Below are positions 7,161 through 23,408 of a stretch of 23,442 nucleotides of DNA, one piece after another. The notes under the pieces are model-generated. The model did no database searches and was not told the DNA's origin. It saw only the letters and a program-made list of their open reading frames with translations. Positions within the stretch are counted from its first letter, which is position 1. Every line of letters begins with the position of its first letter. Source of the stretch: a virus. Made by a program: the position numbers and the translations under genes. The stretch lies in IMG/VR virus record IMGVR_UViG_3300030109_004996, positions 3,311-26,752 of that record; one strand, given 5' to 3'.

Positions 7161-7633
7161 TAAGCTGATTCTACTGGACTTAAAACAAACTCGTAAAATT
7201 GATTTGTATTCAAACCCCTTGGTTTTCCATCACTTTCAATAATAAATTTTGTGCCGTCAAATTCCACTCTACGAGCTTCATTGATGTAATTATAGCCATC
7301 TACTTTTACTACGATGCGGACTGTTCCATCAGCTACAACAACTTTATTTTGTGTTCCAGCTTGCTCTGCTGGTCCATCATCAGTAAGATATGATGTATCC
7401 ATATCATCGTAATATATACGTGCTTGAAAAGTCTCAGATTCTATACTATACTCAACAGAGCTATCTGTTCCTGTATTTGTCTTGCCATATAATGCATTCC
7501 AATTATCGTTAGATGCTATTAATGTTGTCTTCGCACTTTTATAGACAGTGATTGTTTTAGCGAACGTATCATGCAGGGTGTCATTGAGCGCTCTTACTTT
7601 GTTTATTTGATTCTGTGATAAAAATCCCGCCAT
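7160..7633 (-). CDS. Putative head-closure (stopper) protein
   Basis: This 157-residue protein has a short helical start (SQNQINKVRALNDTLHDTF) followed by mostly beta sequence (VVVADGTVRIVVKVDGY; FDGTKFIIESDGKPRG). Small beta proteins in this slot, before a gp10-like gene, are commonly the stopper or head-closure protein. It is the first gene of the inverted module. It is preceded on the minus strand by GTGTA 14 bases before the ATG and by a TATAAATA octamer at 7658-7651, which probably start the operon. No membrane segment or signal peptide is seen. The function is inferred by synteny. Confidence 0.45.
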   Translation of the reverse strand: MAGFLSQNQINKVRALNDTLHDTFAKTITVYKSAKTTLIASNDNWNALYGKTNTGTDSSVEYSIESETFQARIYYDDMDTSYLTDDGPAEQAGTQNKVVVADGTVRIVVKVDGYNYINEARRVEFDGTKFIIESDGKPRGLNTNQFYEFVLSPVESA

Positions 7634-7642
7634 ATTGATTTT

Positions 7643-7658
7643 TACACTTTTATTTATA
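7643..7658 (-). promoter_or_regulatory. TATAAATA late-type promoter with GTGTA leader
   Basis: On the minus strand the T4-late consensus octamer TATAAATA (7658-7651) is followed by AAAGTGTAAAAATC and the ATG at 7633. It is the only intergenic space before the inverted module. The plus strand of the same spacer reads TATATAATAAG toward the gene at 7679, so both directions may start here. Confidence 0.5.
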
Positions 7659-7678
7659 TAATAAGATAGGATTAAGGC

Positions 7679-7972
7679 ATGAACGCTAAAAAAAGATTTA
7701 ATTTAAGTTCACAAAGGGAAATATCTAAACTTTTTAAAGGTATGTTAAAAATGTTAGAGGATATGAAAGCGGATCACGATTTTCATTACCAAAAGCTCTA
7801 CGAAAATATACCCGAAGAACATCATAATGTCTTAAATACTGCCAATCACTTCACACCTGATAAGGTTAACTGGATAAGAAAAAGAATTTTAGATTTGGGT
7901 AACGAATCTATTAGAAATTTGTGCGATGAAGCAGATAATTATAGTGTAAGTTTCGTTTTTAATAAGGAATAA
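7679..7972 (+). CDS. Small helical hypothetical protein
   Basis: The 97-residue, charged and largely helical protein contains SQREISKLFKGMLKMLEDM and a His-containing middle part (HDFHYQKLYENIPEEHHN). It is divergent from the neck module and four bases upstream of the first chaperone-like gene, so it is the leading gene of the long tail operon. TAAGGC just before the ATG is a weak ribosome site. I do not recognise the family; a tail-assembly role is a guess from its neighbours. Confidence 0.55.
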   Translation: MNAKKRFNLSSQREISKLFKGMLKMLEDMKADHDFHYQKLYENIPEEHHNVLNTANHFTPDKVNWIRKRILDLGNESIRNLCDEADNYSVSFVFNKE

Positions 7973-20170: not shown

Positions 20171-21256
20171 TTATGCATTAATTACAGCTAAAATTTGCTC
20201 TACAGTTTTAGTGTAGGACATTTCTTCTGCCAACTTTTGACCCTCTGTGTTAAGTTGTCCTGCTTTCTCAACGGCTTTTTCCATAGCGCTAACAGCTTCA
20301 TTTTCGTCCCAAAGATGGAATGTGCCATTATTAAAGATAGAATTACTGGCAAAAAATACACCGTCTTCAACTGGCATCTCCCCTTTTGGTTCGACAAGTA
20401 TTGAATTTTTTTCAGTAGCCCAATCTTTATGAGATGTAGCGTTTAAAACTACACTCCATTTTCCTAGACAAGTTGCATTAAACGCTGGCAAATTCCAGCC
20501 TTCTCCCCCAGATAAACCTGTAAGATCAATATCAATTGAATTCAATAATTCATTTACCTCTGAGTTTTTTTCTAAAGTAGGTAAAAAGTTAATATTATTA
20601 AAATGATGCCCTTGTAGAGTGTCTGCTATCACACCTCTCATTTGATCGTCATTAAAAAAAGGATTATTTATACAGCAAGTCAATTGATATTTATTGTTAT
20701 TACCATATTTTTTTAACCAAGTCCTAATTATGCTTTGGGTGTGTTTTCTTCTTTCAAACTTACCCATCAAACCAAAATGGATTGTATCTTTTAAGTAAGT
20801 CTTCTCGGTTCTAAAAAAATCTTCATCAAAGCCAAGGGGTATACTCGTCGCCAGTTCAACCCCAGCTTCTCTAAAATGATCGGCTGCATATTTTGAACTA
20901 AAGATAATCTTGTCTTGGACAAGAGCTATTTGCTTTTCTATTTGTGTGGGTTTGTTACACTCATAGAAAGTGTATAGATATTGAGACGGATTTTTTCTGT
21001 TTTCGCTACCGTTCAGATGCCACAACTTTAGAGAGGGCACACAAGGATCTAGATAGTCCCATCTCTTATTTATACAGTCTTCAATATATTTTTTGGTATC
21101 CTCGCTAGGATCAAAAGCAGATAGATCTAATTGATTTAGATCACCAATAGGGAATATTCCTAGATCTACGTCTAGCTTTCTTAACTCTCTTATGAAATTA
21201 TAAGAGACATTACCAAAGCTTAACCTGTTTATAGGGGCTTCTAGTAATAATTTCAT
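20171..21256 (-). CDS. GT-B fold glycosyltransferase (group 1, GT4-like)
   Basis: The 361-residue protein begins MKLLLEAPINRLSFGNVSYN, the Gly-containing loop of the N-terminal Rossmann domain. A second domain starts near FGLMGKFERRKHTQSIIRTW, and the donor-site region is LTGLSGGEGWNLPAFNATC with Glu252. In most members of the group a second Glu follows eight residues later (E-x7-E); here that position is Asn260. The enzyme should move a sugar from a nucleotide-sugar donor to an unknown acceptor: phage DNA base, virion protein or host surface polymer. It shares its start with the stop of ssb (TAATG), so it is co-expressed with replication genes, which mildly favours a DNA or host-modification role. 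There is no membrane segment. Confidence 0.8.
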   Translation of the reverse strand: MKLLLEAPINRLSFGNVSYNFIRELRKLDVDLGIFPIGDLNQLDLSAFDPSEDTKKYIEDCINKRWDYLDPCVPSLKLWHLNGSENRKNPSQYLYTFYECNKPTQIEKQIALVQDKIIFSSKYAADHFREAGVELATSIPLGFDEDFFRTEKTYLKDTIHFGLMGKFERRKHTQSIIRTWLKKYGNNNKYQLTCCINNPFFNDDQMRGVIADTLQGHHFNNINFLPTLEKNSEVNELLNSIDIDLTGLSGGEGWNLPAFNATCLGKWSVVLNATSHKDWATEKNSILVEPKGEMPVEDGVFFASNSIFNNGTFHLWDENEAVSAMEKAVEKAGQLNTEGQKLAEEMSYTKTVEQILAVINA

Positions 21257-21624
21257 TAAAACGGAACATCTTCGTGTTCTGAGTTTTGTGAGTTCTCTCC
21301 ATTAGATTCTGAATCAGACTTTTTAGATGAACTCAAGAACTGTAAATCTTTACCTCTGATGAAATACTTGCTGAAATTTTTGCCGTCTTTCTCCCAAGAA
21401 GACATGCAAAGCTCTCCTTGCACCATAAACTCTCTGCCTTTGGTTAAATACTTTTCAGCGATCTCTGCTGTTTTGTCCCAAAACTCAATATCTACAAAAC
21501 ACTTTGTTTTTGCGTTAGCTGTCGAAATGCCAGCCCTAAGATTAACTACCTTAGATCCAGATTTAGTATTCCTAACTTCTGGATCTTTTACAAGATATGC
21601 TGCTGCTGTTACTGAATTAAACAT
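21256..21624 (-). CDS. ssb: Single-stranded DNA-binding protein
   Basis: The 122-residue protein has the OB-fold layout of bacterial-type SSB: FNSVTAAAYLVKDPEVRNTK, then VVNLRAGIST, FVDIEFWDKTAEIAEKYL, GREFMVQGEL and KYFIRGKDLQFL. A disordered Ser/Asn/Glu tail follows, ending EHEDVPF, the acidic Asp-x-Pro-Phe-type tip that recruits replication and repair partners. It is shorter than E. coli SSB (178) but has all the main parts. It overlaps the sigma factor gene by eight bases and the glycosyltransferase start by one. It coats single-stranded DNA during phage replication. Confidence 0.92.
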   Translation of the reverse strand: MFNSVTAAAYLVKDPEVRNTKSGSKVVNLRAGISTANAKTKCFVDIEFWDKTAEIAEKYLTKGREFMVQGELCMSSWEKDGKNFSKYFIRGKDLQFLSSSKKSDSESNGENSQNSEHEDVPF

Positions 21625-22231
21625 AATTAATTTCTTTTTTTACTTTGTTAATAAAACGGTTATGGATGTTTATACAACCTTGAATACTCATGTCAAGAGC
21701 TTCTGCTATTTTTCTCCAAGGAGTTAATTTATTGTTATCGACATTGTATCTCATGTCAATAATTTTTTTAACTCTAAAATCTTTTTCTTTATTTAAAGTT
21801 GATTCTAACAAAGCAAAAGCCTCCTGCTTATTAAGTTGACCAATAAAACTTTCAGAAAATGGCTCGTCAGAAAGAGGAACATCATCCATAGACATTTCAT
21901 TAGATCTTTTTTTCTTATTAATTATATTGAGGCATTTCCATTTTGCTTGATTAGCTAGATAAGTTGAGAATTTAGTATTCTTTTCAGGATTAAAACTAAC
22001 AGCAGAATTAAAAATTACATAATCTTTTTCTTTAACTGCTTGAGACCTATCAATATTGTAGAAAGGATGAGACAAAAATTGATTCACCATAGAATGGTAT
22101 ATCCCAGAATGTCTGTCAACTAAAGCAGACAAACTTTCTTCGTCCGTATTATCGTCTTGTATACGACAAATTAGTGTTAAATCGCTTTCCACTAGGACAC
22201 ATAGTAAAATGAAATTTTTATTTTTCAACAA
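21617..22231 (-). CDS. Sigma70-family RNA polymerase sigma factor, candidate late sigma
   Basis: The product (204 residues from the TTG at 22231, or 191 from the GTG at 22192) carries sigma region 2: LSALVDRHSGIYHSMVNQFL, then VSFNPEKNTKFSTYLANQAK and WKCLNIINKKKR, the core-binding and -10-recognition helices. A C-terminal helix-turn-helix resembling region 4 follows (TPWRKIAEALDMSIQGCINI). Region 1 is missing, as in small phage sigmas such as T4 gp55. It should direct host RNA polymerase to phage promoters. Neither start has a Shine-Dalgarno. The GTG start gives a cleaner sigma N-terminus (ESDLTLICRIQDDNTDEESL), because the residues before it (ILLCVLV) are atypical. Two TATAAATA octamers and a consensus sigma70 promoter lie upstream. 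Confidence 0.85.
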   Translation of the reverse strand: MLKNKNFILLCVLVESDLTLICRIQDDNTDEESLSALVDRHSGIYHSMVNQFLSHPFYNIDRSQAVKEKDYVIFNSAVSFNPEKNTKFSTYLANQAKWKCLNIINKKKRSNEMSMDDVPLSDEPFSESFIGQLNKQEAFALLESTLNKEKDFRVKKIIDMRYNVDNNKLTPWRKIAEALDMSIQGCINIHNRFINKVKKEINYV

Positions 22232-22241
22232 AAAAGTGCAT

Positions 22242-22260
22242 TATTTATAATATATTTATA
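22242..22260 (-). promoter_or_regulatory. Twin TATAAATA late-promoter octamers before the sigma gene
   Basis: On the minus strand TATAAATA occurs at 22260-22253 and again at 22249-22242, 11 bases apart (one helix turn), just before the sigma gene. This is the exact T4 late-promoter octamer read by a gp55-type sigma. The nearer copy leaves almost no leader before the TTG at 22231 and would suit the GTG at 22192 better. Confidence 0.5.
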
Positions 22261-22261
22261 A

Positions 22262-22319
22262 AACGTAATAGTAAGCGATAACGTATTGCCTTACTAAAAC
22301 GTAAAAGAAGAAGAAACGT
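22262..22319. repeat. Periodic AACGT repeats in the divergent control region
   Basis: AACGT occurs at 22262, 22280, 22298 and 22315, at spacings of 18, 18 and 17 bases. Units 1-3 continue with A (AACGTA). The array lies between the consensus promoter and the late octamers, within the expected leader of the sigma transcript. It looks like a set of protein-binding sites. Confidence 0.5.
22269..22296. promoter_or_regulatory. Long imperfect palindrome/hairpin in the sigma leader
   Basis: TAGTAAGCGATA (22269-22280) pairs with TATTGCCTTACTA (22284-22296) around ACG, about 12 pairs with one bulged C and one G-T. It is not followed by T on either strand. It could be a dimer-type operator or an RNA structure controlling sigma translation. 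Confidence 0.5.
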
Positions 22320-22325
22320 CTTAGA

Positions 22326-22338
22326 ACCGTTTCACGGT
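22326..22338. promoter_or_regulatory. Palindrome at the predicted start site of the sigma promoter
   Basis: ACCGT-TTC-ACGGT is a perfect 5-bp inverted repeat placed just after the -10 box of the minus-strand promoter, covering its predicted +1 (about 22333). This is a typical operator position. Confidence 0.45.
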
Positions 22339-22339
22339 A

Positions 22340-22368
22340 ATTATAATCACGCGCTTTTAGGATGTCAA
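22340..22368 (-). promoter_or_regulatory. Perfect-consensus sigma70 promoter driving the sigma operon
   Basis: On the minus strand TTGACA (22368-22363) is separated by exactly 17 bases from TATAAT (22345-22340). Both hexamers and the spacing match the bacterial sigma70 consensus. Transcription would start near 22333 and run into the sigma, ssb, glycosyltransferase, hsp20 and FmdB-like genes after a leader of about 100 bases. Confidence 0.8.
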
Positions 22369-22393
22369 AACAAAATTTTCACAAATTTTTCTA

Positions 22394-22420
22394 TTGACGA
22401 TGATGCCAATGCTGTATAAG
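22394..22420 (+). promoter_or_regulatory. Candidate promoter for nrdB
   Basis: TTGACG (22394-22399) and TATAAG (22415-22420) resemble sigma70 boxes, but the spacer is short at 15 bases. The GTGTA motif follows at 22420. The element lies back-to-back with the minus-strand promoter, 25 bases from its -35 box. Confidence 0.4.
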
Positions 22421-22436
22421 TGTAATCTCCTTTAAG

Positions 22437-23408
22437 ATGATTTTTGAAGAGCAAGTATCAAGGAAGCCCGACCATTATGAGTGGGCGCAGGAGTTCATCG
22501 AGGCGATGCACAATGGGTTTTGGACAGACAAAGAATTTAGCTTTAGTAGTGATATTCAGGACTTTAATGTCAACCTCAATGAAGATGAGAGAGAGATGAT
22601 AATCAGAACTTTATCTGCGATTGGACAGATAGAGGTCGCTGTCAAGAAGTTTTGGAGTAAATTGGGTGATAACTTACCTCACCCTAGCTTGACTGACTTA
22701 GGTTACGTGATGGCTAACGTGGAAGTAATTCACAATAATGCTTACGAAAGACTTCTTAAGGTTTTGGGGCTAGAGGATGTTTTTGAGGAAAACCTGAAGC
22801 TTGATTTTATTGAAGGCCGTGTAAAATATTTGAGGAAGTATACTCATAAGTTTTACAAAGATTCTAAGAAGCAGTATGTTTACGCATTAATTCTTTTTAC
22901 TTTGTTTGTAGAGAATGTCTCTTTGTTTAGTCAGTTCTATATTGTTAACTGGTTTAATCGCTATAGGAATGTGCTGAAAGATACAGGGCAGCAAGTGAAG
23001 TATACGAGAAATGAGGAAAACATTCATGCGCTTGCTGGCATCAAGATTATCAACACCATTAGAAGCGAGCATCCAGATCTTTTCGATGAAGAGCTTGAGG
23101 AGAGGATAGCTCATGAGGCGCAAGCAGCTTTCGTAGCAGAGAGCAAGATAATTGATTGGATGGTAAATGGTTTTAACGAGACGGGTCTAAACGCTAATAT
23201 TTTAAAAGAGTTCATTAAGAATCGTATCAATGATTCTTTAGAAAAAATCGGGTTTTCTTCTGCGTTCGAAGTTGACACTTCTGCTTTGGAAGATACAATG
23301 TGGTTCGAAGAAGAACTGATGGGCAACAATGCCACCGACTTCTTCCACTCTCGTCCCGTAGAGTATTCTAAAAATTCGCAAACATTTGATGCTGACGATC
23401 TCTTTTGA
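22437..23408 (+). CDS. nrdB: Class I ribonucleotide reductase small (radical) subunit
   Basis: The 323-residue product is a four-helix-bundle R2 protein. Likely di-metal ligands are Glu66 (in SAIGQIEVAVKK), Glu96 and His99 (VEVIHNNAY), Glu159 (LFVENVSLFSQFY), and Glu194 and His197 (RNEENIH). Tyr103 is at the radical-tyrosine position. By hand alignment the first ligand is Glu where E. coli R2 has Asp84. The tail ends QTFDADDLF, the part that docks to the large subunit. With NrdA it converts ribonucleotides to deoxyribonucleotides for phage DNA synthesis. A TGATG overlap couples it to the next gene. No Shine-Dalgarno precedes the ATG; an upstream in-frame stop leaves no other ATG or GTG start. 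Confidence 0.93.
   Translation: MIFEEQVSRKPDHYEWAQEFIEAMHNGFWTDKEFSFSSDIQDFNVNLNEDEREMIIRTLSAIGQIEVAVKKFWSKLGDNLPHPSLTDLGYVMANVEVIHNNAYERLLKVLGLEDVFEENLKLDFIEGRVKYLRKYTHKFYKDSKKQYVYALILFTLFVENVSLFSQFYIVNWFNRYRNVLKDTGQQVKYTRNEENIHALAGIKIINTIRSEHPDLFDEELEERIAHEAQAAFVAESKIIDWMVNGFNETGLNANILKEFIKNRINDSLEKIGFSSAFEVDTSALEDTMWFEEELMGNNATDFFHSRPVEYSKNSQTFDADDLF

Follow-up and report, generated by a model that had tools for sequence, protein, structure and literature searches.

Upstream of the gene for a phage sigma factor is a strongly conserved control region made up of a start signal of host type, a site resembling a repressor operator, and an array of repeats. The stretch of DNA analysed here (the window, 23,442 nucleotides) corresponds to bases 3311–26752 of a 26.8-kb IMG/VR record, and the features on which the analysis rests are given below. 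Comparison of related sequences supports all of these elements, their conservation, the start codon and the identity of the sigma factor, as well as the enrichment of the hexamer GTGTAA before other genes. We moderately favour a model in which this is the control region of the sigma–ssb operon and of its divergent target nrdB, operating as a two-promoter switch.

21256–21624, minus strand: single-strand DNA-binding protein gene, ssb (PF00436, E-value 6e-17)
21617–22192, minus strand: sigma-70-family sigma factor gene, 191 amino acids, GTG start (NCBIfam sigma70-ECF, best E-value 4.8e-9; AlphaFold2 model)
22201–22228, minus strand: P3, probable proximal promoter of sigma-70-like type (TTGAAA-N16-TACTAT), 8 nt upstream of the GTG
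22242–22260, minus strand: AT-only tract TATAAATATATTATAAATA, the supposed late octamers; stays AT-rich among the relatives, 14 of 58 of which lack the octamer
22263–22319, no strand assigned: array of four ACGT-centred sites, 17–19 bp apart, with the same period in divergent relatives
22326–22338, minus strand: ACCGTGAAACGGT dyad across the P1 start, a predicted operator; no change in ACCGTGAAACGG among 21 relatives
22340–22368, minus strand: P1, sigma-70-type promoter TTGACA-N17-TATAAT; hexamers conserved in 21 relatives, predicted start 22333
22371–22392, minus strand: A/T tract directly upstream of the P1 −35 element, presumably UP-element-like in role; AAAATTT..GAAAATTTT kept in alignment A1
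22420–22425, plus strand: GTGTAA, putative phage promoter with a single element, for the divergent nrdB; present in 58 of 58 divergent relatives, where it reads TTACAC on the opposite strand
22437–23408, plus strand: nrdB, ribonucleotide reductase small subunit, divergent neighbour (PF00268, E-value 1.5e-47; ATG at 22437)

The sigma factor and its relatives

The gene predicted to encode a phage sigma factor does so: its product is a sigma-70-family protein by profile search and by comparison of an AlphaFold2 model (mean pLDDT 80, pTM 0.48) with the PDB, with homology to both region 2 and region 4. The NCBIfam profile TIGR02937 (sigma-70 ECF superfamily) matches 20 of 22 family members with a best E-value of 4.8e-9, the window protein itself scoring 30.9 bits, below the curated cut-off of 42.9. 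Among the PDB matches listed by Foldseek, the top ones are sigma factors or sigma complexes (best E-value of 1.3e-4). The next gene of the sigma operon is ssb, which overlaps the sigma stop codon.

No match to the sigma protein was found among 50,697 phage records; a protein query retrieved 50 relatives, and an alignment query at least 230 related IMG/VR loci. Four larger relatives (78–104 kb) were read whole and four others (61–90 kb) whole or nearly so, all of them metagenomic contigs with genes called by simple ORF rules. Common to most of the genomes read are a long tape-measure gene, a terminase, a DnaB-type helicase, a primase and a DNA polymerase, the last with only remote likeness to known phages. 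Three of the genomes have variable ends with poor coding density and small ORFs (94–104 kb in G001, 1–6 kb in G002 and 80–91 kb in G003), where early-type promoters (TTGNNN, TATANT) stand directly before ATG codons. Relatives of NrdB with 81–87% identity (L173–L177) are encoded on contigs in mixed MAG bins (Verrucomicrobiales, Flavobacteriales, Cytophagaceae); these are probably phage contigs in bins and a hint of the host only. Such mixed-bin contigs were all that the NrdB search of bacterial genomes returned, and no host was identified from these.

The comparisons below cover 64 distinct relatives, of which 58 carry the sigma gene divergent from nrdB and six carry it elsewhere; counts over them are not probabilities, because related sequences are not independent. 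In the six (L125, L138, L139, L141, L142 and L144) the sigma gene follows a different gene and has neither P1 nor the dyad nor the array close by.

Start codon and predicted promoters of the sigma gene

Promoter P1 consists of TTGACA (22368–22363), 17 nt and TATAAT (22345–22340), read on the minus strand, and has the hexamers and spacing of a host sigma-70 promoter (TTGACA, 16–18 bp, TATAAT). It is the sole 12/12 promoter match in the window. Of the four genomes examined at first, three likewise have a single such match, and the fourth (G001) has TACAAT as its −10 element. Simulated windows of the same dinucleotide content contain 0.0125 perfect promoters each, none of which is then followed by a 5-bp dyad. 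Invariant in the alignment of 21 relatives are all six −35 positions and five of the six −10 positions, and the spacer drifts. The pattern TTGAC[ACG]-N16-18-TANNAT is kept in 53 of the 58 divergent relatives (the perfect promoter in 42), the other five keeping TTGAC with CATAAT.

Centred on the predicted P1 start, 22333, is the dyad ACCGT-GAA-ACGGT (22338–22326). The form ACCGT-N3-ACGG is exact in 51 of the 58 divergent relatives and a relaxed dyad is present in 58 of 58; both arms are changed in the distant relatives L147 and L150 (ATCGT..ACGAT), as expected of a dyad. Together with P1 it occurs once per genome. The dyad thus overlaps the start site and is conserved with it, in the manner of a repressor operator, and it could not fold into a hairpin in the P1 transcript, because its left arm lies upstream of the predicted +1. 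A search of ten small or shared genes recognised no conserved DNA-binding repressor. Both the perfect promoter and the palindrome on its start site had been part of the original prediction; both are present, conserved together before the sigma gene, and the palindrome is operator-like.

The start codon of the sigma gene is the GTG at 22192. It had been placed at a TTG (22231), which is excluded because the frame is closed upstream of the GTG in L002, L003, L007 and L008, and because an ATG occupies the GTG position elsewhere. Also missed at that time was the proximal promoter P3, the hexamers of which are poor in the window (9 of 12). In 42 of 53 distinct sequences TANNAT precedes GTG or ATG; the distance is 7 nt, except in L093 with 5 and in the clade of the window with 8. 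TNGAAA is located 16 nt further upstream in the sequences inspected by eye.

The stretch before GTG 22192 could instead be an N-terminal coding extension (MEKG...) and nothing else, with sigma made solely from P1, an explanation that we consider possible but doubtful. In many relatives ATG/GTG/TTG-GAA-AAA-GG with an open frame runs over the P3 stretch, and part of the P3 conservation may come from coding, because the stretch may also encode MEKG. An exclusively coding role is, however, at odds with in-frame stops before the GTG in seven contigs (L002, L003, L007, L008, L082, L084 and L108), which retain TANNAT and its spacing. The start codon in the 42 sequences is GTG 37 times and ATG five times; where it specifies valine it is always GTG, a codon that makes up 15% of valine codons genome-wide, and in L122, L128 and L130, where the codon is CTG, TANNAT is lost together with the start codon. 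These codon and stop counts over 53 sequences favour a promoter followed by a start codon, overlapped by coding sequence in some clades, and P3 is likely to be a promoter. The MEKG extension, present in most relatives, is interrupted by stops or shifts of frame in the clade to which the window belongs (window 22193–22231; L001, L002, L003, L007 and L008).

As P3 ends 7–8 nt before GTG 22192, a leaderless sigma mRNA is predicted. Genome-wide, a sigma-70-like promoter lies 4–9 nt upstream of 49 gene starts, compared with about 10 per control band, and such promoters are numerous at 5–8 nt from the start codon in the eight genomes (G001, G002, G003, G005, G009, G011, G012 and G014) and the window. 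Shine–Dalgarno words show no overall excess in the five of these that were counted; owing to these abutting promoters and the lack of a Shine–Dalgarno excess, leaderless mRNAs look common across the phage family. An unlikely elaboration is that the two stacked sigma-70 promoters form a toggle, in which the strong distal promoter would produce a long leader without a ribosome site, under control of the dyad and of the ACGT array, and the proximal promoter a leaderless sigma mRNA; the distal transcript would then toggle sigma through interference with P3 or through a poorly translated isoform.

The ACGT array, GTGTAA and the AT tract

Downstream of the dyad are four ACGT cores, at 22263, 22281, 22299 and 22316 (spacing 18, 18 and 17), a density of four within 56 bp that was reached in 2 of 300 simulated windows. 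In the relatives the cores lie about 24, 42 and 60 bases past the dyad, almost always 18–19 apart, with flanks that differ by clade, and many relatives have a further core nearer the dyad. Dyad symmetry flanking several of the cores is above control.

The lambda origin of replication comprises four iterons and an AT-rich unwinding region and involves transcriptional activation. The region resembles it in having about four dyad-like sites in units of about 18 bp and then an AT-rich tract, all close to an early promoter, and because of this likeness a replication origin was considered, to which control of sigma would be secondary. Three to four sites with a period of 18–19 bp before an AT-only tract, the near uniqueness of the array within the genome and the presence of ssb as the next gene are consistent with an origin, but we regard it as quite unlikely. 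The third-position GC skew does not switch at the locus, as forks moving away would require, and left of sigma (in the G001 orientation) genes of both directions share a strand bias that points toward sigma. No initiator gene was recognised, and the array is reduced to one or two sites in L041 and L146–L150. Unlike in lambda, the array lies between promoter and gene and not inside an initiator gene, and neither raw nor third-position skew gives an origin signal.

Very unlikely is a role of the dyad and the array as RNA hairpins in the leader that control translation. The symmetry around the cores and an imperfect hairpin possible in the window leader (AGTAAG...CTTACT) are compatible with it, but RNAalifold found no conserved leader structure in 17 relatives (−0.36 kcal/mol), and the left arm of the dyad precedes the predicted start. 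Given that no RNA fold is conserved, the dyad and the array look like DNA sites; period, flank symmetry and the absent fold favour the array as a set of protein sites on DNA. Of the periodic array with a hairpin that had been described, the array and an imperfect hairpin are present, whereas the leader fold is not conserved.

The word that precedes genes throughout the family is GTGTAA: it is enriched in all eight genomes, and in six of them no other upstream hexamer is as significant. Per genome it stands before 3 to 10 gene starts, where 0.2–0.4 are expected, mostly 6–15 nt from the start codon, and almost without signal in the control bands (further upstream and on the opposite strand) of the genomes counted. 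These results come from counting hexamers against bands further upstream and on the opposite strand; an unsupervised EM motif search returned low-information words only. Behind GTGTAA are structural genes, the tape measure, a Clp-type ATPase gene and nrdB. Logos of four genomes revealed no conserved upstream element as a −35 partner, and a literature search yielded no paper on GTGTAA as a phage late promoter. The phage sigma factor would be its natural reader, a pairing that we infer from co-occurrence. In G009 and G011, the genomes of two relatives with a relocated sigma gene, GTGTAA is still found upstream of some genes. Located at 7633–7679 of the window, and in homologues from G001, G002, G003, G005 and G014, is a short, almost unchanged divergent gap between two late genes, with GTGTAA 8 nt before one ATG and TATAAATA just upstream; G005 has lost the octamer and kept GTGTAA. 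In none of the 64 relatives does GTGTAA face the sigma gene, and self-activation through a late promoter is therefore unsupported.

Just upstream of P3, the tract TATAAATATATTATAAATA contains two copies of TATAAATA (22260–22253 and 22249–22242), as had been noted; their proposed use as T4-type late promoters, through which sigma would drive its own gene once made, is tempting, as T4 late promoters have the same word without a −35 element (PMC1524935) and a further copy is found 17 nt ahead of the gene at 7633, both in the window and in three relatives, but it is most unlikely and is corrected here, since 14 of the 58 divergent relatives have other AT-rich tracts instead of the octamer and keep the dyad and a P1-like promoter, the octamer occurs near gene starts only 0 to 3 times per genome versus 3 to 10 for the enriched GTGTAA, the G005 homologue of the gene at 7633 has dispensed with it, and the sigma factor has no detectable similarity to T4 gp55.

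A proposed switch and its counterparts in other phages

In the favoured switch model, host RNA polymerase would use P1 from the outset, a promoter of sigma-70 consensus whose UP-element position holds an A/T tract. A putative DNA-binding protein would bind the ACCGT-N3-ACGGT dyad over the P1 start, damping P1, and probably also the tandem ACGT sites downstream, and the weaker sigma-70-type P3 at the start codon would give a basal supply through the leaderless sigma mRNA. The sigma factor would direct host core polymerase to the GTGTAA promoters of the structural genes, the Clp-type ATPase gene and nrdB. What we infer in this model are the repressor and the timing, that P3 is used, and that this sigma factor reads GTGTAA. 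The early-to-late switch of the original prediction keeps its host-type promoter and operator-like dyad before the sigma gene, and loses its self-drive via the octamers. For an uncultured phage family, represented in IMG/VR by at least 230 related loci, the sequence comparison alone outlines an early-to-late program that can be put to the test; new to it would be the late-promoter word GTGTAA, an operator dedicated to the sigma gene and apparently leaderless expression.

With the T4 gp55 system, in which TATAAATA serves as the late promoter with no −35 element (PMC1524935), the family would share a phage sigma factor, a −10-like element only and host core polymerase; the motif, GTGTAA, is different. 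Comparison of the sigma factor with gp55 by hhalign gave a probability of 0.8% over 11 columns, with the limited sensitivity of a single gp55 sequence, and the gp45 clamp profiles PF02916 and PF09116 had no match in six genomes, nor in control genomes. In Salmonella phage 7-11, the sigma factor gp47 recognises the bipartite element GTAAtg-N16-aCTA (PMC8948821); there too a phage sigma factor serves late genes and its gene is presumably read first from host promoters, but no sigma-70 promoter is predicted directly before it. Profile comparison detected no similarity of the sigma factor to gp47 or to phiEco32 gp36, and these results, like that for gp55, are weak negative evidence because the alignment has few effective sequences.

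Closest in its manner of working is phiEco32, the sigma factor of which, gp36, uses single-element middle and late promoters, tAATGTAtA (PMC8948821). As there, a small phage sigma factor would work with host core polymerase, early genes would be read from host sigma-70 promoters, and late genes lie behind one short element, GTGTAA, without a −35 element and with the start predicted a few bases downstream. Unlike gp36, which is encoded by a middle gene, this sigma factor has region 4-like helices, and its gene has its own consensus host promoter, operator and array. The family thus appears to work like phiEco32, with host sigma-70 early and a phage sigma factor plus a short element late; we do not claim membership in either the phiEco32 or the T4 group, from both of which it is set apart by a dedicated consensus promoter with operator and array, a proximal promoter abutting the gene, and GTGTAA.
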